Below are positions 6,395 through 28,179 of a stretch of 64,000 nt of DNA, one piece after another. Under the pieces are notes generated by a model that was given only the letters and a program-made list of their open reading frames with translations, was not told the origin of the DNA and ran no database searches. Origin of the DNA: Tubulanus polymorphus (taxonomy: Eukaryota > Nemertea > Palaeonemertea > Tubulaniformes > Tubulanidae); the NCBI RefSeq assembly GCF_964204645.1, contig NC_134035.1, positions 10,974,501 through 11,038,500 of the forward strand. Reading direction: 5' to 3'. A program made the translations under genes and the position numbers. Every line of letters begins with the position of its first letter. Position 1 is the first letter of the stretch.

Positions 6395-6465
6395 CACAGA
6401 TGAATTTGACGCCTGTTGTTCCACTAAACATGCCTGTTCCACTTTTAAAAATATTAATTATTTCA
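6395..6465. repeat. Dispersed repeat, member 1 (pair with 26008)
   Basis: The segment beginning cacagatgaatttgacgcc and continuing to an aaaatattaatt stretch recurs at 26008-26083 with small differences, including the shared gcctgttgttccac core. It is a short interspersed element of unknown type. Confidence 0.6.
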
Positions 6466-7049
6466 AAAAGTCTGGACTCCAGCGTCCAAGGTTTATTTAA
6501 TTCTGTATTTATTATTTGAGGACTGTAACCTTTTAAATCGAACTCGGTTTCATGCTTTCATTTCAGCAGGTTAAGACCCCAGACGAACGATCGACTGACG
6601 CTCGAAGAGTATGACCGGAGCCGACTGACTGGAGCCGACCGCAACAGACTGAAAAGAACTAGGCGGCGCTAAATTCTAGAGTCGAGAATCAAATAATTTA
6701 TTTATATGGCCTTAAAGTTCCACGATAGGTTCGCCTGGCTACTGGCGCGTATTCAAGGTAAATCCATTCAACAATAGAGACACAATAGCGGTTTTTCAGA
6801 GTTGTTGATAGCATTCACATGCCCTATTGAATACGTCACCGGCTGACCACGGTGTAGTACAAGCATAGGCCTTCATTCACCTCTGCACACTCACACTGTG
6901 AACATGCTACCGTGGATTCTCCTCCTGGCGATTTTCGCTGCGCTCCCGCTCCTGCTCCTGTTCCTGCTTCCTGAGGAACGACGTCTTTATGTTTTATGTG
7001 TTACTGTTTGTCTCTGTGCTGTCCTGTACTGTTCCGTGTTTATTAATCA

Positions 7050-7330
7050 GTTCTATTTTTCAGGGATTAACCCGTTTTATTTTTCAGGGCCGATTTCTCT
7101 GTCGAATTTCAACGTTTGCTGGAACAAAACTAATGTCCGAAAGCGTCAGCTCTCCTTCGCCGGTCACATGTCGAGGATGTCAGAAAAAGAGTCGGTCAGG
7201 AAATGGCTGCCCTCTACACGCCCTCATACGGAACACGAAAACCAGGATGATGAGGCCTCACTCCCCATGTATCAACAGAGTGTGCTGGGTGACGTCAATG
7301 ACGGACAAGTCAGTCTGATTGCACAGGTTA
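7050..7330 (+). mobile_element. LINE-type reverse transcriptase 3' fragment, broken
   Basis: Translated pieces include a run like RQLSFAGHMSRM followed, after frame changes, by GTRKPGR-type residues. This matches the pattern seen downstream of the polymerase core in many non-LTR retrotransposon ORF2 proteins: a conserved F-G-H-x-x-R-M motif, then a G-R-P motif. The reading frame is interrupted, no intact polymerase domain is present, and the fragment is about 280 bp. A related copy lies in inverse orientation at 7540-7740. It is a decayed, truncated remnant. The LINE clade cannot be assigned. Confidence 0.6.
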
Positions 7331-7359
7331 AAAATGGAGTGGTAAAGCTGGACTGTCTA

Positions 7360-7500
7360 CTATTCATTGATTCCTTTTAAGGGATTGCTTCGGGCAGGGA
7401 TTAATTTCCCTGTCTCCTTTGAGTGTTTATATTCATTGATTCCCTGTGGGTTGCTTCGGGCGGGATTAAGTCTTGTCTTCCTTTGAGTGCTAGTCCGGGC
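7360..7500. repeat. Short direct repeat between the two LINE fragments
   Basis: Two copies of a block beginning cattgattcc, followed by a gggattgcttcgggc-like core and a tcctttgagtg end, start near 7368 and 7433. They lie at the centre of the inverted LINE fragments. They may belong to the same element or mark the rearrangement that inverted one copy. Confidence 0.6.
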
Positions 7501-7539
7501 AATCCAGTTGCGCTGCCCTATTTTTGGCTTGGGCAATTT

Positions 7540-7740
7540 GATAGGTTTGTCAGTTACTGACGTCACCCGGCACACCCTGTCGGTAAATGGTGAAAGTAAG
7601 GCGTCGTCATCCTGGTTTTCGCGTTCTGTGTGAGGGCGTGTAGAGGGCAGTATATTCCTGGCTGGCTCATTGTCTGGTGTTCTGGGCATGTGACCGGGGA
7701 CGGAGAGCTGAAAAGCTTTCGGACATTCGTTTTGTTCCGT
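7540..7740 (-). mobile_element. Inverted second LINE fragment, broken
   Basis: The reverse complement of this stretch closely matches 7117-7300, including the aacaaaac-aatgtccgaaag block and the ctgccctctacacgccctca block. The reading frame is interrupted. The two fragments face each other with about 240 bp between them. The left boundary of the downstream segmental duplication (7729) falls at the edge of this fragment, so the LINE may have taken part in the duplication. Confidence 0.6.
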
Positions 7741-7780
7741 ACCAGGTTTTCATCGCTCTTCTCTTTTTTTTTCATTTCAG

Positions 7781-7867
7781 GACTCCCAAGATGAAGAAGA
7801 AGATGCTGAAGGCGACTACAGAAGATGGCGAAAAAAGAACACTGAACTCAGCAATATTGAAAGTTAA
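7781..7867 (+). CDS. Exon-like 28-codon acidic/basic tail, copy 1
   Basis: A strong acceptor (pyrimidine run then ttcatttcag, ending at 7780) opens into 28 codons and a TAA: DSQDEEEDAEGDYRRWRKK, then NTELSNIES. The segment is highly charged, acidic first and then basic, and would suit a C-terminal exon. Copy 2 at 13418 differs here by one synonymous change (GGC to GGT), which is compatible with selection on protein or simply with recent duplication. No upstream coding exon was found that joins it, and I do not recognise the protein. It may be a decayed or captured last exon. Confidence 0.4.
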   Translation, partial: DSQDEEEDAEGDYRRWRKKNTELSNIES

Positions 7868-8199
7868 GTTGATACATGTGTAAATTACGATGTATGATAC
7901 AGAAAGGATTGTGTAACTACAGAATATCGTTCTTTTACTCATTTCAGGTTAATCCGGAAAGGCCCATCTAAAATCTACCCACTAGAAGTGCCCACAAAAG
8001 ACTCCACGTTGAATGAACCAAACACCAAAAGACCTGAGCAACCAAACCTGGCAGTCTCATCCTGCATGGCAACAGGAATGCATACATACATAAAGCTAAG
8101 TTGATTTTTCATATCTGGGGTAGAATGCATAGGCACTGGTGAGGATACAGACGCTGGTCAAGCTCGCCATCTCCGCACTACTTTATTGAAGCTCTATGG

Positions 8200-11000
8200 C
8201 CGGTATATTGTTAAAAGTAAATTGAAATAGGCTATAGCTAGGGCAATGATTGCTTGAATATTTACAATATTAGACGAAATGATTGAGTGAGGTCCCTTGA
8301 ATATTCTTTGGTCTGATAATTAAAGGTAGATTGGTCAGTTATTGATTAAAAGATTTTTTAAGTATGTACAATTAAGGTAAATTCAATATCTTATGTGAAA
8401 TTTTCCGAATGTACCGTAGATATTTCAGGCCTCATATGGCTTGTTTAACTGACAATCAAGATATAGATAGGACAATTTACTAATTAACCAATCGCTTAGA
8501 TATTAGCAATCATTCAATATCTTATAATGTTTGACGAGAAATTCTTCAGGTGTAGATATTTTAGGGCCCCATATACATTTAGGCTGGCTTTACTAGTAAA
8601 GATATATATCAATTAAACTTTATCGTCGGTTAATAGATTTTTTTACAAATAATATATTGATACATATGTCATTTATAAACATTCGGGCACTTTACAGTAT
8701 ATATTATGTGCTGCTTTACCCATTACATTAATGAATTCCTGGGGGAAAGATGTATAAAATATTGTCTAGGGCTCTATCGAGATCTGGTGTAATATATATG
8801 GGGAAAACTATGGACTGCGGGTCTTTTAGAAACTGTGATTAGGTCTCAACACTTTGATAAATCGAGAATAAAGAAAGCTTTAATTAATCCAAATCATTCC
8901 CCGGAGTCATACTTTGTACCTTTTTTGGGCTATGATTATTGTTTAACTGACAATCATCATATATATAGCTAGGAAAAATTGCTCATTAACCAATGGCTTA
9001 GATATCCACAATTAAGATGAATTTAATATTTCATGTAAGATCAAAAACTATTTATATGCTATGTATGAAATAATTTATATGTGATACAGGTCCATTATAA
9101 ATATGATTAAACTGACAATTGAGATATAGCTGATATATGTATATTTGAGCATATCTGTATAATTGAATCAGTCTCATCGACTGATCAGTGTTTATATCTC
9201 CAACTGCCGTACTTACGGCGACTGGTCATGCTCTTCAATATTGCCAAAAGTTTACCAAAACCTTACTGATTCAAATGGTATCTAAAAGCCATAGGCCTAC
9301 TGTGTGTCAAGTGACGCATAATATAGTCTATTAACTGACAATTAGAATATAGCTAAGATGAATTACTCATTAACGTATTACTTAGATATCTACAATTAAG
9401 GTTAATTCAATTGTTATGTGAAATTATTTTTAATTCAAGTCCATTGACATTTAAAATGTAGCTGATACATGTGTATCTGAGCAAATTAATTATTTATCTG
9501 TATCTAAAGTGAACCTATTGTGTCGTCATACAGCTGTATTAATTTTGATACATATTGCCAAATTCATTTAACGCAGATTTACTTCCGATTGAAGGGAGAT
9601 AAAACAAATCTGTACGTGCAAAAATACATTCCTGAATTTGGAAGGGAGAATATTTCAATTTCACTGTGTATGTCAGATTGAGAGCCTTAATCTGACCGGA
9701 TATCCTAAACTTAGGTCTTATTCCTCTTGCTAATAGCTCTCTTTTACTAACCCCTCTCCTTCAAACTATATTCCAGCATCATGTCTTGCACCGCACCAGG
9801 GAGGTCCGGTCATAACAAGGTCTTTCGATCCTTATACACAGTGTACTGTAAAAGATATAAAAGAACTAAAGATTACATAGCAATTCGGCTATAAGGGAAT
9901 TTCTAATTTACCACTAAAAATGTGCTTTTGTCTTAATTTCTGATGAATTCAAATAGTGATGAATTCACCACATCTGAAATTCTACTCGTGTAGATTTTCA
10001 GGCTCCATATAAATATAAATATTGTTGACTGATAATTAAGATGTAGCTAGTATGATGACTAATAAACGGATCGCTTAGATATCTAGAAAATTAGTTAAAA
10101 TTAATTCAATATAATGAATATAAGTGAAAATTATTTAGAAAATAGCGCAGTGGATGAGACAACTGTATCGTGCAATGTTGTCTGTGTCTAACTGGGCCAC
10201 ATGTGTGAGGGATCTGTTGAATCAGTTAGGTTTTGGGGAATTCTGGGTTCGTTAAGCTAGGTATCAAAAGCTCTGATGCAAAATTAGCAGTTGAAATAAT
10301 GATGAATTCAAATTTGTACTGGATTTGAAATTCTTCTCGTGTAGAAATTTCAAGCCCCAAATAAATTATTGTCCGAGACAATTTTAATTATAGCTAGGAC
10401 ATTAATTGATTTATTAGGTATCTACGATAAAGATTAACTCAGCATCTTCATATAAGGTAAAAGTGCTCAAATCCAAACCATATGGGTTGATAAGACAACT
10501 GTATAATTAACTATTGGTTTAGGCCTATACCCTATACAGGGTGTGTTTTAACTCTGTCTCTTGTGCGTTGGATTTATTAAATCATTAAGGCTTTGCAGAA
10601 TTCTGGATTTGTCAAGGTGTGGGGATGATTCAAGGTTTCTTAAATCTGTAGAACCATGTTGCTTATAGGATCAGTGTGCTCAATGCTGGCAGCGCACTCA
10701 CTCTAGTTAGTTATATTATCATAATTACAACATCATTGTATATATTTTACGTGCAATATTTAGAATTACTGAAATGGATGAGAATACCATTCACTGGGCA
10801 CAGATGTCACCATCTGTGGGTAGAAAACATATCTCTTAAAGTTTATTAATTGACGATGAAGTTAATTTGATAATATGAACATGGTTAAGCTGACAATCGA
10901 AATGTATATAGGGGGCAATATTACTAGCAGGTTTGCACTATATGATGGGCCTGGGTTTTAATAAAAGTCTACTGGCCACTGGGTGTTTAGCACCCATGGA
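8200..11000 (+). repeat. Degenerate internal repeats inside the duplicated unit, copy 1
   Basis: A motif of roughly 100-120 bp recurs in diverged form. It runs from tttaactgacaat, through a atatagctaggac-like core and cttagatatctac, to aattcaatatcttatgtgaaa. Copies are visible near 8336, 8444, 8940, 9108, 9328, 10018, 10368 and 10884. Several are preceded by a gtgtagat-ttcaggcccca-like block. The same copies appear in the second duplicate, offset by about 5.6 kb. Spacing is irregular, so this is an old repeat family that predates the segmental duplication. Confidence 0.65.
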
Positions 11001-11875
11001 AGAAAAACATCAAGAATTTCTGAAGATAGAAGAGAAACTACAGTACAAAAAAAATTTGAACAGATTGATTATGCATTATTAGATTTGCTGTAACTCTGGT
11101 ATTCCTCAAGATAGCTAGAGATGCTTTACCGAATTGTTGTTAAACTATAATAATCAATATCAGATATCTAGAATGAATATAGATTAATTAATTGAATCGT
11201 TTAATAATTGACTATTATCAAAATCTACTTTCCGGTCCACATTGCTGATCTTATATATATATATATATATGAATTGACACGTTAATCATGATCAGTGATA
11301 TTCGAAAGGATTTTCTGCTCACAAGATTTTGCTCTTTTTTTCAGCTATTCTAATAATAAATTAGTCATAAAATGTACAAAGTGATCTTCAACCTTGTAAT
11401 ATAGATATTCCAAATCTTGATGTATTAAAATAGGCAGTCAACTTAATTGACCCTAATCAGTCGCCTGCCGGTTCAGACTGGTTGGAAGATTAATTGAATG
11501 AACCGGAACCGGATTTTCCAATTTGTGCTTGGTTTTAAAGAAAACAAAATTTATGTAAAATCGACCCCCGATCACAACTATATCTGTACTTTGATTTCCG
11601 ATTTTGAATATAAAACTCGACAAAATTTTTCAACCTTGTAAACTTTCGGACTATTTACATGAAAAAAAGACCCATGAAATGTAAAAAACTTAGACAAAAT
11701 TATTCAACCTTGTAAACTTTCGGACTATTTACATGAAAAGAAGACCAAATATTGTAAAATATAGTTATTTCCAAAATCTCAATGTATTAAATTAGGCAGA
11801 AAAAAAGTTATATGAAAAAAAATATGTAAAATTAGACAACCAACATAGGAGACCCTCGCCGATAATGAACCCGGC

Positions 11876-13300
11876 AATCATAAAAGGTAACTTAATATAG
11901 ATGGAATTATTGCGATAAATTCTCATTGAAAAATTTGTCATTACTGTATAACTTCTTTTAATCATTGCAGCTAAATTTCGACTATATGAAAACCCAGCTT
12001 GAGATCAACTACTCATCCAAAATCGACCAACTGGAACAGCGCACAGCCAACTAGAATCAAAATCATCAACCAATCAACTAAGATGAACCACGCCGATAAC
12101 GAACCCAGCAATCATAAAAGGTAACTTAATATAGATGGAATTATTGCGATAAATTCTCATTGAAAAAACTTGTCATTACAGGATAACTTCTTTTAATCAT
12201 TGCAGCTAAATTTCAACTATATGAAAACCCTGCTTGAGATCAACTACTCGTCCAAAATCGACCAACTGAAACAGCGCACAGCCAACTAGAATCAAAATCA
12301 TCAACCAATCAACTTAGATGATCCACGCCGATAACGAACCCAGCAATCATAAAAGGTAACTTAATATAGATGGAATTATTGCGATAAATTCTCATTGAAA
12401 AAACTTGTCATTACAGGATAACTTCTTTTAATCATTGCAGCTAAATTTCAACTATATGAAAAACCCAGCTTGAGATCAACTACTCATCCAAAATCGACTA
12501 ACTGGAACAGCGCGCTGCCAACTAGAATCAAATCATCAACCAATCAACTTAGATGATCCACGCTGATAACGAACCCAGCAATCATAAAAGGTAACTTAAT
12601 ATAGATGGAATTATTGCGATAAATTCTCATTGAAAAAACTTGTCATTACAGGATAACTTCTTTTAATCATTGCAGCTAAATTTCAACTATATGGAAAACC
12701 CAGCTTGAGATCAACTACTCGTCCAAAATCGACCAACTGGTACAGCGCACAGCCAGCTATAATCAAATCATCAACCAATCAACTTAGATGATCCACGCCG
12801 ATAATGAACCCAGCAATCATAAAAGGTAACTTAATATAGATGGAATTATTGCGATAAATTCTCATTGAAAAAACTTGTCATTACAGGATAACTTCTTTTA
12901 ATCATTGCAGCTAAATTTCAACTATATGGAAAACCCAGCTTGAGATCAACTACTCGTCCAAAATCGACCAACTGGAACAGCGCACAGCCAGCTATAATCA
13001 AATCATCAACCAATCAACTTAGATGATCCACGCCGATAACGAACCCAGCAATCATAAAAGGTAACTCAATATAGATGGAATTATTGCGATAAATTCTAAT
13101 TGAAAAAATTTGTCATTACAGGATAACTTCTTTTAATCATTGCAGCTAAATTTCAACTATATGAAAAACCCAGCTTGAGATCAACTACTCGTCCAAAATC
13201 GACCAACTGAAACAGCGCACAGCCAACTAGAATCAAAATCATAAAAGGTAACTTAATATAGATGGAATTATTGCGATTAATTCTAAATGAAATTGATTTA
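11876..13300 (+). repeat. 235-bp tandem array, copy 1 (about 6 periods)
   Basis: The landmark aatcataaaaggtaac occurs at 11876, 12110, 12345, 12580, 12815, 13050 and 13237: five periods of 234-235 bp and one shortened period of 187 bp. Each unit holds a donor-like aaaag|gtaac. About 85-90 bp on, a pyrimidine-rich tract ends in an acceptor-like tcattgcag. About 145 bp of exon-like sequence follows, beginning ctaaatttc. Units differ by a few substitutions. Most frames of the exon-like part are closed; the first two units contain a 22-codon ATG frame (11986-12054 and 12221-12289). Confidence 0.95.
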
Positions 13301-13417
13301 CGGTACATGGAATTTATTATTATTTTAATGGTTTATGAAGAATTATGTATATTGTATTTACAATTAGTTTTGTTCCGTACCAGGTTTTCATCGCTCTTCT
13401 CTTTTTTTTCATTTCAG

Positions 13418-13504
13418 GACTCCCAAGATGAAGAAGAAGATGCTGAAGGTGACTACAGAAGATGGCGAAAAAAGAACACTGAACTCAGCAATATTGAAAG
13501 TTAA
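13418..13504 (+). CDS. Exon-like 28-codon acidic/basic tail, copy 2
   Basis: Duplicate of the exon-like segment at 7781, with the same acceptor and the same predicted peptide ending NTELSNIES. About 85 nt further on, a second acceptor-like tract (ttttactcatttcag, ending near 13584) precedes a segment beginning gttaatccggaaaggccc, also duplicated from copy 1. That second boundary resembles the acceptor in the 235-bp units. Confidence 0.4.
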   Translation, partial: DSQDEEEDAEGDYRRWRKKNTELSNIES

Positions 13505-16500
13505 GTTGATACATGTGTAAATTACGATGTATGATACAGAAAGGATTGTGTAACTACAGAATATCGTTCTTTTACTCATTTCAGGTTAATCCGGAAAGGC
13601 CCATTTAAAATCTACCCACTAGAAGTGCCCACAAAAGACTCCACGTTGAATGAACCAAACACCAAAAGACCTGGGCAACCAAACCTGGCAGTCTCATCCT
13701 GCATGGCAACAGGAATGCATACATACATAAAGCTAAGTTGATTTTTCATATCTGGGGTAGAATGCATAGGCACTGGTGAGGATACAGACGCTGGTCAAAC
13801 TCGCCATCTCCGCACTACTTTATTGAAGCTCTATGGCCGGTATATTGTTAAAAGTAAATTGAAATAGGCTATAGCTAGGGCAATGATTGCTTGAATATTT
13901 ACAATATTAGACGAAATGATTGAGTGAGGTCCCTTGAATATTCTTTGGTCTGATAATTAAAGGTAGATTGGTCAGTTATTGATTAAAAGATTTTTTAAGT
14001 ATGTACAATTAAGGTAAATTCAATATCTTATGTGAAATTTTCCGAATGTACCGTAGATATTTCAGGCCTCATATGGCTTGTTTAACTGACAATCAAGATA
14101 TAGATAGGACAATTTACTAATTAACCAATCGCTTAGATATTAGCAATCATTCAATATCTTATAATGTTTGACGAGAAATTCTTAAGGTGTAGATATTTTA
14201 GGGCCCCATATACATTTAGGCTGGCTTTACTAGTAAAGATATATATCAATTAAACTTTATCGTCGGTTAATAGATTTTTTTACAAATAATATATTGATAC
14301 ATATGTCATTTATAAACATTCGGGCACTTTACAGTATATATTATATGCTGCTTTACCCATTACATTAATGAATTCCTGGGGGAAAGATGTATAAAATATT
14401 GTCTAGGGCTCTATCGAGATCTGGTGTAATATATATGGGGAAAACTATGGACTGCGTGTCTTTTAGAAACTGTGATTAGGTCTCAGCACTTTGATAAATC
14501 TAGAATAATGAAAGCTTTACTTAATCCAAATCATTCCCCAGAGCCATACTCTGTGCCTTGTTTTGGGCTATGATTATTGTTTAACTGACAATCATCATAT
14601 ATATAGCTAGGAAAAATTGCTCATTAACCAATGGCTTAGATATCCACAATTAAGATGAATTTAATATTTCATGTAAGATCAAAAACTATTTATATGCTAT
14701 GTATGAAATAATTTATATGTGATGCAGGCCCATTATAAATATGATTAAACTGACAATTGAGATATAGCTGATATATGTATATTTGAGCATATCTATATAA
14801 TAAGTGAATCAGTCTCATCGACTGATCAGTATTTATATCTCCAACTGCCATACTTACGGCGACTGGTCATGCTCTTCAATATTGCCAAAAATTTACCAAA
14901 ACCTTACTGATTCAAATGATATCTAAAAGCCATAGGCCTACTGTGTGTCAAGTGACGCATAATAGATATAGTTTAACTGACAATTAGAATATAGCTAAGA
15001 TGAAATACTCATTAACGTATTACTTAGATATCTACAATTGAGGTTAATTCAATTGTTATGTGAAATTATTTTTAATTCAAGTCCATTGACATTTAAAATG
15101 TAGCTGATATATGTGTATCTGAGCAAATTAATTATTTATCTGTATCTAAAGTGAACCTATTGTGTCGTCATACAGCTGTATTAGTTTTGAAACACATTGC
15201 CAAATTGACATTTAACGCAGATTTACTTCCGATTGAAGGGAGATAAAACAAATCTGTACGTGCAAAAATACATTCCTGAATTTGGAAGGGAGAATATTTC
15301 AATTTCACTGTGTATGTCAGATTGAGAGCCTTAATCTGACATGATATCCTAAACTTAGGTCTTATTCCTCTTGCTAATAGCTCTCTTTTACTAACCCCTC
15401 TCCTTCAAACTATATTCCAGCATCATGTCTTGCACCGCACCAGGGAGGTCCGGTCATAACAAGGTCTTTCGATCCTTATACACAGTGTACTGTAAAAGAT
15501 ATAAAAGAACTAAAGATTACATAGCAATTCGGCTATAAGGAAATTTCTAATTTACCACTAAAAATGTGCTTTTGTCTTAATTTCTGGTGAATTCAAATAG
15601 TGATGAATTCACCACATCTGAAATTCTACTCGTGTAGATTTTCAGGCTCCATATAAATATAAATATTGTTGACTGATAATTAAGATGTAGCTAGTATGAT
15701 GACTAATAAACGGATCGCTTAGATATCTAGAAAATTAGTTAAAATTAATTCAATATAATGAATATAAGTGAAAATTATTTAGAAAATAGCGTAGTGGATG
15801 AGACAACTGTATCGTGCAATGTTGTCTGTGTCTAACTGGGCCACATGTGTGAGGGATCTGTTGAATCAGTTAGGTTTTGGGGAATTCTGGGTTCGTTAAG
15901 CTAGGAATCAAAAGCTCTGATGCAAAATTAGCAGTTGAAATAATGATGAATTCAAATTTGTACTGGATTTGAAATTCTTCTCGTGTAGAAATTTCAAGCC
16001 CCAAATAAATTATTGTCCGAGACAATTTTAATTATAGCTAGGACATTAATTGATTTATTAGGTATCTACGATCAAGATTAACTCAGCATCTTCATATAAG
16101 GTAAAAGTGCTCAAATCCAAACCATATGGGTTGATAAGACAACTGTATAATTAACTATTGGTTTAGGCCTATACCCTATACAGGGTGTGTTTTAACTCTG
16201 TCTCTTGTGCGTTGGATTTATTAAATCATTAAGGCTTTGCAGAATTCTGGATTTGTCAAGGTGTGGGGATGATTCAAGGTTTCTTAAATCTGTAGAACCA
16301 TGTTGCTTATAGGATCAGTGTGCTCAATGCTGGCAGCGCACTCACTCTAGTTAGTTATATTATCATAATTACAACATCATTGTATATATTTTACGTGCAA
16401 TATTTAGAATTACTGAAATGGATGAGAATACCATTCACTGGGCACAGATGTCACCATCTGTGGGTAGAAAACATATCTCTTAAAGTTTATTAATTGACGA

Positions 16501-17397
16501 TGAAGTTAATTTGATAATATGAACATGGTTAAGCTGACAATCGAAATGTATATAGGGGGCAATATTACTAGCAGGTTTGCACTATATGATGGGCCTGGGT
16601 TTTAATAAAAGTCTACTGGCCACTGGGTGTTTAGCACCCATGGAAGAAAAACATCAAGAATTTCTGAAGATAGAAGAGAAACTACAGTACAAAAAAAATT
16701 TGAACAGATTGATTATGCATTATTAGATTTGCTGTAACTCTGGTATTCCTCAAGATAGCTAGAGATGCTTTACCGAATTGTTGTTAAACTATAATAATCA
16801 ATATCAGATATCTAGAATGAATCATGATCAGTGATATTCGAAAGGATTTTCTGCTCACAAGATTTTGCTCTTTTTTTCAGCTATTCTAATAATAAATTAG
16901 TCATAAAATGTACAAAGTGATCTTCAACCTTGTAATATAGATATTCCAAATCTTGATGTATTAAAATAGGCAGTCAACTTAATTGACCCTAATCAGTCGC
17001 CTGCCGGTTCAGACTGGTTGGAAGATTAATTGAATGAACCGGAACCGGATTTTCCAATTATGTGCTTGGTTTTAAAGAAAACAAAATTTATGTAAAATCG
17101 ACCACCGATCACACAACTATATCTGTACTTTGATTTCCGATTTTGAATATAAAACTAGACAAAATTTTTCAACCTTGTAAACTTTCGGACTATTTACATG
17201 AAAAAAAGACCCATGAAATGTAAAAAACTTAGACAAAATTATTCAACCTTGTAAACTTTCGGACTATTTACATGAAAAGAAGACCAAATATTGTAAAATA
17301 TAGTTATTTCCAAAATCTCAATGTATTAAATTAGGCAGAAAAAAAGTTATATGAAAAAAAATATGTAAAATTAGACAACCAACATAAGAGACCCTCG

Positions 17398-20300
17398 CCG
17401 ATAATGAACCCGGCAATCATAAAAGGTAACTTAATATAGATGGAATTATTGCGATAAATTCTAATTGAAAAAACCTGTCATTTCAGAATAACTTCTTTTA
17501 ATCATTGCAGCTAAATTTCAACTATATGGAAAACCCAGCTTGAGATCAACTATTCGTCCAAAATCAACCAACTGGAACAGCGCACAGCCAGCTAGAATCA
17601 AATTATCAACCAATCAACTTAGATGATCCACGCCGATAATGAACCGAGCAATCATAAAAGGTAACTCAATATAGATGGAATTATTGCGATAAATTCTCAT
17701 TGAAAAAACTTGTCATTACAGGATAACTTCTTTTAATCATTGCAGCTAAATTTCAACTATATGAAAAACCCAGCTTGAGATCAACTACTGGTCCAAAATC
17801 GACCAACTGGAACAGCGCACAGCCAACTAGAATCATAATCTGCAACCAATCAACTTAGATGATCCACGCCCATAACGAACCCAGCAATCATAAAAGGTAA
17901 CTTAATATAGATGGAATAATTGCGATAAATTCTAATTGAAAAAATTTGTCATTACAGGATAACTTCTTTTAATCATTGCAGCTAAATTTCAACTACATGG
18001 AAAACCCAGCTTGAGATCAACTATTCGTCCAAAATCGACCAACTGGAGCAGCGCACAGCCAGCTAGAATCAAATCATCAACCAATCAACTTAGATGATCC
18101 ACGCCGATAACGAACCCAGCAATCATAAAAGGTAACTTAATATAGATGGAATTATTCCGATAAATTCTCATTGAAAAAATTTGTCATTACAGGATAACTT
18201 CTTTTAATCATTGCAGCTAAATTTCAACTATATGGAAAACCCAGCTTGAGATCAACTACTCGTCCAAAATCGACCAACTGGAACAGCGCACAGCCAGCTA
18301 TAATCAAATCATCAACCAATCAACTTAGATGATCCACGCCGATAATGAACCGAGCAATCATAAAAGGTAACTCGATATAGATGGAATTATTGCGATAAAT
18401 TCTCGTTGAAAAAACTTGTCATTACAGCATAACTTCTTTTAATCATTGCAGCTAAATTTCAACTATATGGAAAACCCAGCTTGAGATCAACTACTCGTCC
18501 AAAATCGACCAACTGGAACAGCGCACAGCCAGCTAGAATCAAATCATCAACCAATCAAATTAGATGATCCACGCCGATAACGAACCCGGCAATCATAAAA
18601 GGTAACTTAATATAGAAGGAATTATTGCGATAAATTCTAATTGAAAAAACTTGTCATTACAGGATAACTTCTTTTAATCATTGCAGCTAAATTTCAGCTA
18701 TATGAATAACCCAGCTTGAGATCAACTACTCGTCCAAAATCGACCAACTGGAACAGCGCACAGCCAGCTAGAATCAAATCATCAACCAATCAAATTAGAT
18801 GATCCACGCCGATAACGAACCCAGCAATCATAAAAGGTAACTTAATATAGATGGAATTATTGCGATAAATTCTAATTGAAAAAATTTGTCATTACAGGAT
18901 AACTTCTTTTAATCATTGCAGCTAAATTTCGCTCAAATTTCAACTACATGGAAAACCCAGCTTGAGATCAACTACTCGTCCAAAATCGACCAACTGGAAC
19001 AGCGCACAGCCAACTAAAATCATAATCTGCAACCAATCAACTTAGATGATCCACGCCGATAACGAACCCAGCAATCATAAAAGGTAACTTAATATAGATG
19101 GAATAATTGCGATGAATTCTAATTGAAAAAATTTGTCATTACAGCATAACTTCTTTTAATCATTGCAGCTAAATTTCAACTATATGAAATACCCAGCTTG
19201 AGATCAACTACTCATCCAAAATCGACCAACTGGAACAGCGCACAGCCAACTAGAATCAAAATCATCAACCAATCAACTTAGATGATCCACGCCGATAACG
19301 AACCCAGCAATCATAAAAGGTAACTCAATATAGATGGAATTATTGCGATAAATTCTCATTGAAAAAACTTGTCATTACAGGATAACTTCTTTTAATCATT
19401 GCAGCTAAATTTCAACTATATGGAAAACCCAGCTTGAGATCAACTACTCGTCCAAAATCGACTAACTGGAACAGTGCGCTGCCAACTAGAATCAAATCAT
19501 CAACCAATCAACTTAGATGATCCACGCTGATAACGAACCCAGCAATCATAAAAGGTAACTTAATATAGATGGAATTATTGCGATAAATTCTCATTGAAAA
19601 AACTTGTCATTACAGGATAACTTCTTTTAATCATTGCAGCTAAATTTCAACTATATGGAAAACCCAGCTTGAGATCAACTACTCGTCCAAAATCGACCAA
19701 CTGGTACAGCGCACAGCCAGCTATAATCAAATCATCAACCAATCAACTTAGATGATCCACGCCGATAATGAACCCAGCAATCATAAAAGGTAACTTAATA
19801 TAGATGGAATTATTGCGATAAATTCTCATTGAAAAAACTTGTCATTACAGGATAACTTCTTTTAATCATTGCAGCTAAATTTCAACTATATGGAAAACCC
19901 AGCTTGAGATCAACTACTCGTCCAAAATCGACCAACTGGAACAGCGCACAGCCAGCTATAATCAAATCATCAACCAATCAACTTAGATGATCCACGCCGA
20001 TAACGAACCCAGCAATCATAAAAGGTAACTCAATATAGATGGAATTATTGCGATAAATTCTCATTGAAAAAACTTGTCATTACAGGATAACTTCTTTTAA
20101 TTATTGCAGCTAAATTTCAACTATATGAAAAACCCAGCTTGAGATCAACTACTCATCCAAAATCGACCAACTGGAACAGCGCACAGCCAACTAGAATCAA
20201 AATCATCAACCAATCAACTTAGATGATCCACGCCGATAACGAACCCAGCAATCATAAAAGGTAACTTAATATAGATGGAATTATTGCGATAAATTCTCAT

Positions 20301-20720
20301 TGAAAAAACTTGTCATTACAGGATAACTTCTTTTAATTATTGCAGCTAAATTTCAACTATATGAAAAACCCAGCTTGAGATCAACTACTCATCCAAAATC
20401 GACCAACTGGAACAGCGCACAGCCAACTAGAATCAAAATCTGCAACCAATCAACTTAGATGATCCACGCCGATAACGAACCCAGCAATCATAAAAGGTAA
20501 CTTAATATAGATGGAATTATTGCGATAAATTCTCATTGAAAAAACTTGTCATTACAGGATAACTTCTTTTAATCATTGCAGCTAAATTTCAACTATATGG
20601 AAAACCCAGCTTGAGATCAACTACTTATCCAAAATCGACCAACTGGAACAGCGCACAGCCAACTAGAATCAAAATCATCAACCCAGCAATCATAAAAGGT
20701 AACTTAATATAGATGGAAAT
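17398..20720 (+). repeat. 235-bp tandem array, copy 2 (about 14 periods)
   Basis: The landmark aatcataaaaggtaac, or a one-base variant, occurs at 17415, 17650, 17886, 18121, 18356, 18591, 18826, 19073, 19309, 19544, 19779, 20014, 20250, 20486 and 20688. Spacing is 235-236 bp except for one unit lengthened to 247 bp by a gctcaaatttc insertion and a final shortened one. The donor-like and acceptor-like signals are kept in almost every unit. Some units share variants such as the gaaccgagc or cgctgataac forms in alternate positions, suggesting expansion by multi-unit blocks. Confidence 0.95.
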
Positions 20721-21064
20721 ATTGCGATTAATTCTAAATGAAATTGAATGACAGTACATGGAATTTATTATTATTAATGGTATATGAAGAATTATGTATA
20801 TTGTAAGATATTGTATAATTACAGGATATCTTCTTTTATTCATTTCAGCTTAATCACATCTATAAGAAAATGCTCAGCCTAAGATGTACTGGTGAAAAAT
20901 GTACTGATTAGAATAGCCAACAGAAGATTCCATCTTGAATTGAAATCATCAACTACCACAGAAGAACCATCTTGAATTCGACTGCATAGGCCTAGAAGTC
21001 CAGAGAAATTTAGCCAGCAGCAGTTTATCGCCCAATGACAGATTTCTTCTACAATAGGTGGAGA
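20716..21064 (+). other. Exon-like flank after the array
   Basis: After the last array unit, a tract ending in tcatttcag (near 20848) resembles the array acceptor. It leads into cttaatcacatctataag and a stretch with two related words, agattccatcttgaatt and agaaccatcttgaattc. It looks like a diverged terminal unit of the same exon family. No long open frame is present. Confidence 0.4.
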
Positions 21065-21250
21065 AGAGACAATGCGTGTCTTACCGGTATATATAAACAA
21101 TTATTCAGGAGCAGCAGAGACAATGTAAATATTTTGTGAACAGTTATTCAGGAGCAGCACAGACAATGCGTATCATATAAACACTTGTTCAGGAGCAGCA
21201 CAGACAATGCGTATCTTATAAACACTTATTCAGGAGCAGCAGAGACAATA
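21065..21250 (+). repeat. About 42-bp short tandem repeat
   Basis: The word ttattcaggagcagca, followed by gagacaatg or cagacaatg and then a cttataaacact spacer, is repeated four times starting at 21101, 21144, 21186 and 21226, with a partial copy before them. Spacing is 40-43 bp. Confidence 0.85.
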
Positions 21251-22465
21251 GAATATGTAAAGTATTGATTTATTTTGTGTATTACCTTTTTACAAACTAG
21301 TCTGATGGGTAACATGGGTTTACAAAAATCACTGTCTATTTGAAGGAGCGGAATAAACTGAAGAAATATTTTTGATGTTGATAATTGAAAATTGAAGTTA
21401 GATAATTAGGGCTCTGAGTCTGAGAAGGAACTATTCATATTTGATTAATTTGTAAACAGAGGAGTCATGTCCTTTAAGTTCCTTCTTGGAGTCTCATAAA
21501 ATTTACGCTCCATTAATTCATGGTATTGATCGCGTTCAGCGTCTGGGTTCGACTCGTAAGTCGGTTGAAATACTACTAAACTTAGATATGAAATCAACAG
21601 GATAGTTCAGATAATCTTCATCCTTAGTTAAACATAGTTGTGCATGATTTATAATAATGACATTTATGTTCATTGGTCTTCATTCGATTAATCTTAGAAA
21701 TAGTGATTCATTTTATATTTCCTTAGAGTGAAAATAATTTAATGATTTGCATAGCCTAAATGTTGAAAAGGGAGAGCGTAGTCAGTTAAACAGTTGCAAC
21801 TTTTAAACGCAATAAAGGAAGTTGGTACGTTATTAGTTTAGACTCCTAAACTCGCCCAGCAAGTTAATGGGTTTTGAATAAAGATGTTTTGAAAATGATT
21901 CCTTGGCCAAAAAGTGAAGGGCCGGGCCTTCAGTACAAACTGGCTACGCCCCTCGAATATCATCAGGTATAGTTAAGGAAACCATATAATATTAGGCAGT
22001 GTTCTGTGTACAAATAATAAGTTAATATACCAAAGTGTCGATGTAATTTTGATGCCATAATTTTAAGGCCCATTAAAGCGATTTGACTAATGAGTAGAAT
22101 ATCTCGATTTTCACAGGAGTTTTAGTATTGTACTTCCATGTACCGTATTTCCGGCCAATAGGTAGGTGATCCTAGCTAGTTATATGAAATTTATATCATA
22201 GTACATTGTATCCACAGAGGTATGAGAGGTAATACTAGGAATAATGTAATATAAAGGAATAAATAATAATGGCCAGCAATGATTTTGATTGTTCTAATTT
22301 TGTTTATAGCTGTTTTAACTTCTTTCATCGTCATTCATATCATAGGGTTGAGTTGCTTTCAATGATCACTTAACTTCAAATCGGGATGTTTAATTAGGAA
22401 GCGATTATTTAGGTGCAGCAGTGAATTTGTAGCACTTTTTTAAGTGAGGCCATAATTTCACCGCT

Positions 22466-22650
22466 AAAAAATTCCTGATGATGTAAATAGTAATAAATAG
22501 TACAAAATACAGAGAACATAATTTTTAAAAATAGATAAAAACTACAAAATAAATGATATAAAAAAAACAAATGAAATTATAAAGTAATGAAAAAATAAAC
22601 AAAACCAACAAACAATTAGTAAATATAGGCCTTCATCATCAGGAATTTTT
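22466..22650. repeat. Inverted repeat around an A-rich core
   Basis: aaaaattcctgatgatg at 22466 is matched in reverse complement by catcatcaggaattttt at 22634-22650. The interior of about 150 bp is strongly A-rich. It looks like a small terminal-inverted-repeat element of about 185 bp. Confidence 0.6.
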
Positions 22651-23679
22651 TCTAATCAACTCAATCTAATTATTAAAGGTTCTTCTTTCATAGAACAACC
22701 TTCTCCGTGTTTGCCAACCTCTTGAGATCTTTTCTGTTGTTGTTTTGAGCGTTCTATCGACTCAGTAATAAACAAAACAAATAACCATAAACCTTAACTA
22801 AACCAAACACACTAAAAAATATCTGTTTCGATAGAATGCTTCAAATAACTGATGAAAGATCACGCGTCCTTTACCTATGTATCACACCCTGTCACTGCTG
22901 TAACTGTTAATTGTTTTAGGGATAATATCTGGGAGATACATTTTACTCTTTTTTAGAAAGAATGTTAAACAGCTATAAACGTGATTAGTTATCGATCGTA
23001 AAATTATTGTCATGTTTTCCCTGAAATAGCGTTGTATTAAATGAGCGAACTGATAGTGTTTGAAAATCTTTATTTAAGACAAGGTGCAGCGAAAATTCTA
23101 GTCTAGTAAAAATGATGTTAACGAAAATGAAATTTAGAACGTTAAGTTAATTGTAAGCTTTCCAGGGTGACTTTGTAGGATTTGTCTCTAGTTTGAAAGC
23201 TTATGTTACACTGTTTTTAAAATACAGTTCATTTGTTAACAAGGAACTTACATAATAATTCCTCGAGTACATATCTGTCATTTAGCAAGGTGTGATTATT
23301 GTCATGAGAATAAAACGACACATACGTGTTCATTATTCATGGTAAAACTTATCAATTGTTTAGTTAAGTTTATAGCAACTACCAAACTGAGGAAACTGAG
23401 GTCCTATCAAATAAAGTGGAGCAGTACTTTTTATAAATGAGGATTTATGAACAGTGTTGATAAGTAAATTGTCCTGTTTTGATTGTCGGTTTTACAATGT
23501 CTATATAAAGTTTATTTATTTTTCTTAACTCCTACATACAATGTTGGACAGGTTTTACGTGCACTATATGGTTATGGAGGATCCAGTGCGAGTCAGCTGG
23601 CTGTGCTTAGAATTAAGGCACTAGACCATGTGCATGGTGCATATATGGGCCTGATTCAAATCTGCGCAAGAAGCATTTC

Positions 23680-23924
23680 AGGGTCCGATCTGAGGAATGA
23701 AAGCCACTTGCCCGGGAGCAAGCATATCTGAAATTTCGCTTGCCCCTTCCAAAAATACTTGCCCTTCACAGGCAGTCCAATTGGTGTTCGTTGTATTGAG
23801 TGGGAAAAAAGCTATGTGACATAAAATTACACTAGCCCGGGGGACAAGTGATAATGATAACCTACTTGCCCTGATGAGAATATACTTGTCCCGGGCAATC
23901 GAACAAGTGCTTAGATCGGACCCT
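23680..23924. mobile_element. 245-bp non-autonomous DNA transposon with TIRs and target-site duplication
   Basis: The ends are perfect 12-bp inverted repeats: agggtccgatct at 23680-23691 and agatcggaccct at 23913-23924. A 7-bp direct duplication, gcatttc, flanks them at 23673-23679 and 23925-23931. The interior has no long frame. It carries several copies of a cacttgcccgggcaag-like word in both orientations. Ends of the CAGGG...CCCTG type with a 7-8 bp duplication suggest a hAT-like mobiliser; that is inference. The exact ends indicate a fairly young insertion. Confidence 0.85.
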
Positions 23925-25020
23925 GCATTTCAAATATCGAAAAAGTCATGATTGTAGATATCTCAGCAATCAGTTGTTTGTAATTTACTTAGCTATATTC
24001 AATTGGATAGTTGAACAATATCTATATGATGATGCTCCATGTATCTTAATTAAAAAACCTTCAAAATTCTTTGCATTAAACGTAACAATGTGTGGAAATT
24101 AACGTTGATAATGTTTGAAAATCTTGGGCAAAGTTGGAAAAACTGGAAATAGTTGGAATAATTATCTTGTTAAATAATGTTAATGAAAATGAAAATAAAG
24201 ATTGATTAGCTTAATCTCATCTATCCAGAGTGAATCTGTAGGTTTTATCTCTGAGTTCACCCATTTGTAGAAATTACATGATACAAAATTTCAGTTTTCC
24301 TGTAAAAACAATGTTAATGAAATGAAATTAGAGATTGATTATTTGAGAGAGTGAAATTGTTTTATGTCCAGTTTAATGTTTACATTTTGGAGATATGTTA
24401 TGCAGTTTTATGTATGAACAGAATATCCTAAATCTCTCTTAGGCCTACATTGTAATTAGAATAGTTGATATGATTGAATGCTTCATATTTCATGAAATGG
24501 CCAAGTGTCACTTATGCCCGGCGAGTGACTACATGAATTGTCAAACTAATAGTCTTAGACATTCAGACTAGTCCCAATTGTCGGTGTTTAATGGATCGAA
24601 GTTAACAATTCTTTGTTCAATTTTGTTATTTTCCTATTGATTCAAATTGTATCAGTTGCAGTGATAATGTTTTTGCTAAATAAAACTTTGAAATACCTTC
24701 CATGATGTAGCATATGTGATATTAAAAGCTAGTAATTTTATATTTTGGATAATCTAAGTCATTATAAGGCTAAAAATGATATCTTGTTTTTCCTGATCGG
24801 CCGGGTCATTTCATAGATCAATGAAATTTGTAATCAGTTCATTTCCATCTGCCGGGTCTGTTATGGTAAGCTTGATCATGAAAAAGTAATGTAAGGCCTT
24901 ATGTAGAAAGGCGGCCGGCTGGGTCAACTTTAAAGAGTAAAAATGTAAATCAGATTGATAACTTTAAATCTTACGCTTTCCAGAGTATTTGGCCGGGTTT
25001 ATCTCTGGTTTTAGTGCGGG

Positions 25021-25180
25021 GAGCCATGGACCCTCACAGTTTAGAGTCCATGGTTGTGGGCCATAGACATTTCTGTTTTAGATGGTCTATGGTTGGACCT
25101 ACGAGCAGTTATCTATTAGATAATTGCTCGTTGGACCATGGACGTATAAGCTCTAGTTTATTGTTTATACGTCCATGATT
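25021..25180. repeat. Cluster of adjacent palindromes
   Basis: Four inverted repeats lie side by side. One is ccatggaccctcacagttt against agagtccatgg (25024-25053). The next is ccatagacatt against tggtctatgg. The third is gagcagttatct against agataattgctc (25103-25130). The fourth is catggacgtataa against ttatacgtccatg (25137-25174). Parts of the outer arms (accatgga) also match each other, so larger folds are possible. Confidence 0.75.
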
Positions 25181-26007
25181 GGATTGTTTTTTAAATCAGT
25201 CCACGTGTTTGAGGAACTTAAGTTATAATTCCTCAAGCACAAACCTGGCATTTTGTATAATTGTTGTATGAGAGTAAATATAATTGGAGTCTCTTTTTGT
25301 TAAGTTAATTAGCTTCTCTGAACTTTATTAGTTCACCAGTCAGTGGTTTTTTGTTATCTTGCAATCCACCTCTTTTTTCAACCCTATATTCCCACCAACA
25401 TGGTGCGGAGACGAGTATGTCCGCAAAATATGATAATCGATTATATCAGGCAACACAGTTAAACACTTTAAACCGGAAACACTGACACTTGTTGACCGGT
25501 TAGAAGCGAATGTTGCTGCCGAAGAGTAATTGCGAAATTTTTTTGATTGTCACTATAGCCATCAAGGGTGAATTTCCACTTCAATCTTCAATTCAGAATT
25601 TATTGCATCCGTTTATTTATTGCATCAAAACCGTCCAATACTGATTAAAACCGTCTAATACCGACCAAAAGTGAAATAGTACCGACCAAAATTCTAACAA
25701 CCATTAAAAGTAAATCATGATACCGACCAAAAGTAACCAACCAAGTAAAATGAGAAGAAAATCGACCGACCAATGATGACTAGACTCGCGGTTTTTAGCC
25801 TTGTAATTATTTGAAATCTTTCACTATTGAAAACTGTCTGGTAAGTTGACTATAATTGGTGGAGGGATCACTCGCTGGGTGAAGTAGAGACTACTAAATT
25901 TTAATAATTTTTGTTTGAATAACATAGGCGAACTTTATCTTGTCAAATCAAATTCTATTTTCCTAATCATAATTTGCTAGTTCACACGTAGTCCAAATAA
26001 GATAAAG

Positions 26008-26083
26008 CACAGATGAATTTGACGCCTGTTGTTCCACAAACGGCTGACAAAATACTGTCCCACTTTTTAAAATATTAATTTAT
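26008..26083. repeat. Dispersed repeat, member 2 (pair with 6395)
   Basis: Second copy of the cacagatgaatttgacgcc element. It keeps the gcctgttgttccac core and the aaaatattaatt end, with a changed middle. Confidence 0.6.
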
Positions 26084-28179
26084 ATATCCTATGAATGAGT
26101 TTCAGGTTTCGCTTTCAGTTTTGACATTCGTATCAGTTTTTCGAAACAAATTTGTGAGTCTACCATCTCCAAATCGTATCAAATCGGGGATGAGCGGAAG
26201 CCGTGGTGGCCCCTTTGAATTGGCGTCCCGTAGACTGTATTAACATCTACAGACTCCGAATCAAAGATCGTATGAAAGAAAAGTGAGAATCATGTCTACA
26301 AAAAGTGGCTTTAAAGTCTTTATTCAAGAGAATGGTTTCATTAAATAAAGCATTTGAAACGAGCCCGCCACTACAAAAATAGTGATCTGAAACCGTCTAG
26401 TGCTGCCCCTATGTATAACGATAGCGGAGAAAACGTGAACTAACATAATACTCGCTTGCCAGACACTTTTAACGGCCGTACTGAACGAACTATTTACCGA
26501 TTTGCGGGCCGGATTCCGAGAAAATTCTCAAACTCTTTCCAAACAGCTCTGAAACTCCTTAACTGGCAATTCCTCTTCAAATGAATTAGTTTTAAAAGAG
26601 TAAATTAGTATCAGGGTATTTCTAGTTAGGTTGGCGATGATATGATAGTAATTAATTGATAAGCATGAATTGGTCAGTGATGGTCAATTCATGAATTCTC
26701 AATATCTATAGCGCCGAATCCTTTCTAGTTTGACACCATAACGCGGTATATCGTTTTCAAATTCAAGGAGTTTGAATTGGTCAGTGGTGGTTAGTGATGG
26801 TCAGTTTATGAATTTGCAATGATTCTTCAGTAGTTTGAAAACAAACATGACTTGAAAAATTTCCGAAATTCGAAGTCAAGTGTTCGAGACTCGGAGATAT
26901 CTCAATTGGTCAGTTTCTGACCATGATGGTGTCGCCATTGTGGTCTATAGCTCAAATGAAACACGTGGAACCGACGAAGAGGCCCAAAAGTGCAATTTCC
27001 TGAGTGATGTGATCCAAAAATACCCTTACTGGAAAAGGCAGTCTCTCAATCGGACGAAACCAAATCGGACAGGACAATTAAAATTTGGGAAGGCCACAGG
27101 TAGTGGTCTTTCTACGAAGCCCACGTGGTGTCCGTATTATTATGAAATCTTTTTTTAAACCACCATGTACCACGATGTAATAAGCATCGTTGAAGAGCAC
27201 TTGAAACAGCCATTAACCACTTGAAACTGTCAGATCAAACATCATACCGCGTCCCCGCAAAGAGATTTCATTGGCCTTTCTAGACTACCCCGCCAGTACG
27301 GGTAGCCGAGCAAACCGGAAAACTCATAATGTTAGTCAGTAACCTGTCGTGGTTTAGTTTTGATCGGATTTTCACAAACACATAACTTATTTCTAAATTT
27401 ATGAGCAATTTGGTTAAACCTTAATGTATCTTTTGATTCGTGTCTCTTCTCTTTGCTTTTGATATAATTTACTCAATTGTTGTCACTCACTCAACTTAAT
27501 CACTTTTGTTTGAGTGAATTACCCCCCTTAGCTTGCTTCCCTTTGAAAATAAAATGATAATTGAATTTAATTGGATAATCCTAATTTCGATATTACCGGA
27601 GCCACCCCAATGGCTGCTTCAGTCGTACTATAAACCGATGTAGTCCGATGGCGACCTTTTTGATGGAATTGTAGTTAATAACATCAGTAATTTTGATTAT
27701 GGTAAAGCTACGGCATCCTTTCAAGCATCGTACAGAAACTAATTCCCTTTTCGTAACTGCACTTTCCTGTTTGTTTCTGTCGTGTCCCACCCGCATCACA
27801 AAAAAAGTTAAAAAGACAAGACAAAATCAATTCAATTCAAATTGATTCGTCTTGTTAACAAAGACAATGATTTGATAATTCGATTTAGGGTAGAATAAAC
27901 ACGTTGGACAAAGGAGAGAACAAGTAGTAAAAACACATTATACCGTACGTGGGATATAAGAAAGCAATTTAGGAAGTTATTTTGGCAAAAATTCAATATA
28001 GAGTATAGTCAGTATGGTAATTTTCCCTAAAAGAATATAGCTGCAAAGCAGCGATAACATAATATAACGAGAATCCCACTGAAAAGACGAGAAAATGATA
28101 AAGTCCGAAAATGCTTCCTTTAGCTGGTAGTTTATTCAACATTTCGACTATATACTAATAGTCATCTTCTGGTATACTT

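Follow-up and report, generated by a model that had tools for sequence, protein, structure and literature searches.

The 64,000-nucleotide (nt) stretch of the Tubulanus polymorphus genome analyzed here (contig NC_134035.1; hereafter, the window) contains two tandem arrays in which each 235–base pair (bp) unit consists of an 85-bp intron-like piece and some 150 bp that resemble an exon. Both arrays lie within a large, apparently noncoding mobile element whose family is dispersed through the genome, and across the element subfamilies the GT and AG of the intron-like piece, with their adjoining bases, are slower to change than the remainder of the unit. Judging from the DNA, we favor, with moderate confidence, the explanation that this is a mobile element whose internal exon-intron repeats are kept splice-competent and probably yield a repeat-exon noncoding RNA.

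Two arrays of an exon-intron unit

Tandem Repeats Finder placed the 235-bp arrays at 11857-13242 (5.9 copies) and 17396-20683 (13.9 copies). When positions 11800-20800 were scanned for exact matches to the donor AAAG/GTAAC and the acceptor ATTGCAG/CTAAA (the slash marks the border), 22 donors and 20 acceptors were found, which together delimit 20 complete intron-like pieces. These are 85 bp long in 19 cases and 84 bp in one, while the exon-like pieces measure 150 bp (13 of 20), 151 bp (4 of 20), or 102, 117, and 162 bp. An earlier note on this DNA, made from the letters alone, had described about 20 units with both a donor and an acceptor; that count stands, and only its estimate of about 145 bp for the exon-like part has to be raised, to about 150 bp.

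The number of near-full units per array differs between copies of the element, from 1 to 22. Intron length is held and exon length is not, since 93 of 97 motif-defined introns under 130 bp are 83 to 86 bp long (85 bp in 78), whereas the 91 motif-defined exons between 100 and 200 bp spread from 102 to 174 bp.

The splice signals are among the slowest positions of the unit

Unit hits numbered 195 from 21 sources; the 130 near-full ones, in 22 arrays, were kept, and 65 partial ones were left out. Both GT and AG are present in 128 of the 130 near-full units, and among 225 dinucleotides GT ranks third and AG sixth. When the unit was rotated, GT was retained in 100% of units in two rotations, tied with a few dinucleotides, and fell at the edge, unscored, in the third; AG ranked 12th, 8th, and 6th. 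We also sorted 205 hits by their identity to the consensus, leaving out of the count for a site any hit that did not cover it. At 85% identity or more, GT was kept in 111 of 111 units and AG in 108 of 108. At 75 to 85% identity, where mean dinucleotide retention was 0.64, the corresponding values were 42 of 43 and 47 of 48 (93rd and 95th percentile), and at 65 to 75% AG was kept in 10 of 10.

Changes were then counted by Fitch parsimony on 135 of the 205 units (those with at least 150 aligned columns, from 23 sources). GT and AG together have undergone 2 changes, compared to a mean of 16.9 for dinucleotide pairs of the same spacing at 127 positions. Only the observed placement is so low, and two randomly drawn dinucleotides match it in 0.32% of draws. 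Thus, the comparison of splice positions with the rest of the unit that the earlier note had proposed finds the splice positions more conserved. The slowest 6-mers on the tree are TTGCAG, AAAGGT, AAGGTA, and AGGTAA, with 0.8 to 1.0 changes per site against an average of 4.35. The splice GT and the splice AG account for 1 change each; the two other GTs of the unit have 2 and 19, and other AGs have 6 to 11, apart from one AG with a single change, which ends at the donor. Both signals are present in 132 of the 135 units. The four looks at splice-signal retention are not independent of one another.

In the element copy L013 (1990-4301), regular units are followed by a run of very diverged ones in which several donors, by eye, read GTAAGT and not GTAAC. 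These donors suggest that the amplified unit type has lost an originally stronger donor. The seven donors and eight acceptors picked by eye in L013 are not counted as evidence.

Outlying introns, an internal duplication, and a putative terminal exon

Boundaries of the same kind lie outside the arrays (Table 1), as the earlier note had reported for about 7958, 13584, and 20848. All three are real, with the correction that the first acceptor AG is in fact at 7946-7947. In the alignment, the diverged first intron shows a GT in 13 of 13 rows holding its exon, and AG is there in every row (14 of 14). The 82-bp exon-like stretch in front of this intron is found, with insertions and deletions (indels), in 13 of 14 aligned rows and is missing from L005. 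A 150-bp donor-to-acceptor gap like the one that precedes the putative terminal exon also closes the arrays of L005 to L009; in L019 and L020 the gap is 155 to 156 bp.

The intron near 13.5 kilobases (kb) is a copy of the one near 7.9 kb, because positions 7725-11178 recur at 13363-16822 with 98.6% identity. The same internal tandem duplication relates 11284-13242 to 16820-18782 (96.6%). At 13248-13417, the donor that closes array 1 is followed, over the duplication junction, by an acceptor before 13418, so that a single transcript could span both halves.

Table 1. Features of the element copy in the window.
Feature	Position	Strand	Basis and details
Mobile element copy containing both arrays	6465..27331	+	Limits of matches elsewhere in the genome; left limit varies between relatives
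Exon-like stretch before the first intron, 82 bp	7781..7862	+	Sequence; starts after TTTCAG
Outlying intron-like sequence, 85 bp, GTTAAG...TTTCAG	7863..7947	+	Sequence and alignment; donor 7863, AG 7946-7947
Array 1, six complete introns of 84-85 bp	11857..13247	+	Tandem Repeats Finder and motif scan
Array 1 introns	11887-11970, 12121-12205, 12356-12440, 12591-12675, 12826-12910, 13061-13145	+	Motif scan
Second copy of the internal tandem duplication	13363..18782	+	Identity 98.6% and 96.6%
Duplicate of the outlying 85-bp intron	13500..13584	+	Donor 13500, AG 13583-13584
Array 2, fourteen complete 85-bp introns	17396..20698	+	Tandem Repeats Finder and motif scan
Array 2 introns	first 17426-17510, last 20497-20581	+	Final exon piece 117 bp
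Terminal intron-like sequence, 150 bp, distinct interior, GTAAC...TTTCAG	20699..20848	+	Donor 20699, AG 20847-20848
Putative terminal exon (exon status, end, and polyadenylation proposed)	20849..21360	+	41-bp tandem repeat at 21092-21249; AATAAA at 21352
Right terminal sequence GAGCAAACCGGAAAACTCATAATG	27308..27331	+	Matches, in inverted orientation, the left end of the related 5.7-kb element

The arrays belong to a dispersed mobile element

In the genome searched (267.8 megabases, 77 contigs; the window is C11:10974501-11038500), the array unit has at least 245 matches, with 37 of 168 candidates scored. A 30-mer spanning the donor occurs 601 times at up to three mismatches, compared to 0 for the reversed pattern. 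The DNA to the left and right of the arrays, outside them, is also common to other loci. The exon-plus-intron build that the earlier note saw in the unit is supported, but a gene confined to this locus was rejected, given that both the unit and the DNA flanking it recur across the genome. Since the arrays sit in one copy of a dispersed family, the gene, if any, would belong to the element and not to the locus.

The right end of the element is sharp. It falls at 27331 in the window and at the same place in all 11 copies compared (window included), beyond which the flanks are unrelated. The right-end sequence of these copies is CTCATAATG, with a substitution in one copy and a few extra bases shortly before the end in three. 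A hairpin, CTACCC...GGGTAG, sits 26 bp before the right end, both in the window and in the other copies shown. The shared right end gave 194 first-look candidates in the genome, of which 40 were scored. The left end is less clear-cut: depending on the copy, the common block starts at about 6250, at 6430-6470, or at 6660-6690.

The right end is shared with a related 5.7-kb element present in two copies, on C8 (L058:1823 to L031) and C4 (L059/L046). This element has terminal inverted repeats, CATTATGAG..T.CCGGTTTGCT, with a hairpin next to each, by eye. The right 661 bp (26671-27331) are common to many short elements that have their own tandem repeat of ~110 bp. In the left part of the element there is a long inverted repeat, 7121-7262/7595-7738 (117 bp at 80% and 24 bp at 96%), which is present in many of the listed element copies too.

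The left part also holds a membrane-like open reading frame (ORF) at 6904-7143 (MLPWILLLAIF...), whose aligned part is open in 11 of 12 copies, with one stop in L034. Indels within its aligned rows are all multiples of three, nonsynonymous (pN) and synonymous (pS) polymorphism are about equal, and its Pfam scores lie below the curated cut-offs. Outside the element, positions 400-3121 hold what by eye is a host gene of several exons, which has introns of the ordinary GT-AG type and ends before the element begins; its last exon has no Pfam match at an E value of up to 1.

Transposition class

We treat the element as a mobile element without class assignment, presumably moved by proteins supplied elsewhere. 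A left terminal counterpart of the 27331 end was not found in the window at up to five mismatches. The longest stop-to-stop frame is 177 amino acids (aa) in 6400-27400 and 93 aa in the related 5.7-kb element; no search aimed at a transposase split by introns was made.

The canonical Helitron 3′ terminus is CTRR. Unlike Helitrons, the element ends on the right in CATAATG, and its 5.7-kb relative has terminal inverted repeats. The genome contains 58 matches to Helitron_like_N. In the 6.5 to 8 kb sampled downstream of six of these, no 3′ end shared with the element was found, although one might lie beyond the sampled DNA; the samples contained a single match, of 103 bp at 78%, which is not at an end. 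Among the 41 right-end matches listed, the one closest to a Helitron match lies, by eye, 28 kb away from it (on C5). The element resembles Helitrons and Helentrons in its dispersal, its conserved ends, the hairpin close to its 3′ end, and a central tandem array whose copy number varies (PMC12628747). In the two copies of the 5.7-kb element, both with their two ends, no target duplication of 2 bp or more was seen by eye; a DNA transposon with terminal inverted repeats would be expected to have one.

Coding capacity and known RNA families

The earlier note had also considered a decayed repeat-protein gene. Of the 20 exon pieces, 19 contain stop codons in each of the three frames and the last, of 117 bp, is open in one; the longest open stretches in the two arrays spliced in silico are 49 and 50 codons. 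A recent repeat-protein gene is unlikely on these two grounds, and recently decayed coding repeats were rejected on them. The open frames of the 82-bp exon-like stretch before the array would suit a decayed gene, but this stretch carries 4- and 5-base indels between copies, and together with the stops in the exon pieces these leave such a gene hardly credible. Known RNA families gave no match in the window at the gathering threshold.

Weighing the explanations

Several observations weigh against splicing as the force that preserves the signals. The usual donor consensus has G at +5; the amplified donor GTAAC lacks it, and the +5 position has 4 changes on the tree (rank 116 of 213), an average rate. 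Among the most diverged units, those of 65 to 75% identity, no more than 6 of 11 keep GT, a background level. Three of the 135 tree units are without one or both signals (two in L018, one in L049), and the exon piece that starts at 7948 seems, by eye, to be without its donor (CTAAG at about 8096). Other motifs (GTCATTACAG, TTGAGATCAACT, and AATTAT) are nearly as conserved as the splice signals, and GT shares its rank with several dinucleotides. The units come from loci picked among the best matches to one unit, and the columns tested had also served to build the tree. Last, a spliced and reverse-transcribed junction of the first and second exons had 0 matches in the genome at up to three mismatches. 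At the same tolerance, unit-unit and unit–terminal exon junctions gave one match, an ordinary acceptor, CATTGCAGCTAAATTT; the joint of the first exon with a unit was not searched. The missing spliced junctions argue against retroposed copies only.

A donor without the +5 G, its background level in the most diverged units, and the absence of coding capacity would all fit if an intron-spanning fragment of a captured gene had been amplified inside a mobile element as a neutral satellite, with splice signals that are fossils without a present role. Arrays of closely related copies are up to 99 to 100% identical, so that much of the likeness within arrays is recent, and satellite-like arrays of variable length within mobile elements are well described (PMC12628747). 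Such a satellite should nevertheless lose GT and AG at the rate of their neighbors, whereas the two together changed only twice on the tree, and they stand at about 98% in a divergence class whose mean dinucleotide retention is 64%. We consider a neutral satellite unlikely, though still deserving of weight. Conservation of GTCATTACAG and TTGAGATCAACT would also be accounted for if the slow positions were binding sites of DNA- or RNA-binding proteins, for instance, of the machinery that replicates or silences the element, and resembled splice sites in looks only. That explanation is quite improbable, given that the slowest 6-mers coincide exactly with donor and acceptor and that it is their spacing that stays constant.

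Under the explanation that we prefer, an element with splice-competent internal repeats, transcription would enter from the left part of the element and run through the array in the + direction. The units would be spliced into a noncoding RNA of repeated 150-nt exons, followed by the distinct terminal exon at 20849 with its AATAAA at 21352. Splicing would be useful to the element (e.g., for RNA stability, export, or avoidance of silencing), and its signals would be kept intact for that reason. The arrays would have grown by unequal exchange of a single exon-intron module, which would explain their range of 1 to 22 near-full units. The DNA shows the anatomy and the constraint directly; that the element is transcribed and spliced, and gains from this, is what we infer.

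Discussion

Parts of this arrangement have counterparts in known systems. Helitron and Helentron elements may carry central satellite-like arrays, and the passages of the review that bear on them mention no exon-intron unit (PMC12628747). Introners are mobile elements that make introns, and one Introner family, in Acanthoeca, is described as having inverted repeats and no target duplications (PMC9860276). The element described here resembles them in tying mobile DNA to splice signals. Introners, however, are the intron itself, inserted in genes, while in this element the splice signals belong to an internal repeat unit, which includes exon-like sequence too.

Repeat-rich long noncoding RNAs such as FIRRE come from single host genes and contain repeated RNA domains. 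A spliced noncoding RNA from the arrays would be similar in having such domains; it would differ in arising from an array within a dispersed element, and the transcript is so far a predicted one. For introns to be gained by tandem duplication, AGGT has to be duplicated at both borders; in the arrays, AG/GT stands at the donor border but AG/CT at the acceptor border. The arrays are like that mode of gain (PMC4974935) in that tandem duplication creates a series of introns and exons. In the open-licence literature, judged by titles and abstract openings, we did not find a satellite monomer that consists of an exon plus an intron. The element thus unites the themes of Introners and of Helitron arrays in another way, in that the tandem monomer itself is exon plus intron.

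A stronger proposition, on which we are divided and incline slightly toward doubt, is that the satellite monomer is a working exon and intron, that selection on splicing keeps hundreds of them intact, and that the array may be regarded as a moving gene for a repeat-exon noncoding RNA. Satellites within mobile elements are usually regarded as by-products of a structural kind. In this monomer, a donor and an acceptor separated by a constant distance are the positions that change most slowly. Should RNA confirm splicing, the arrays would exemplify a satellite monomer under selection for how its RNA is processed, and their variable number of near-full units, from 1 to 22, would provide a natural series for asking what a mobile element gains from a repeat-exon RNA.

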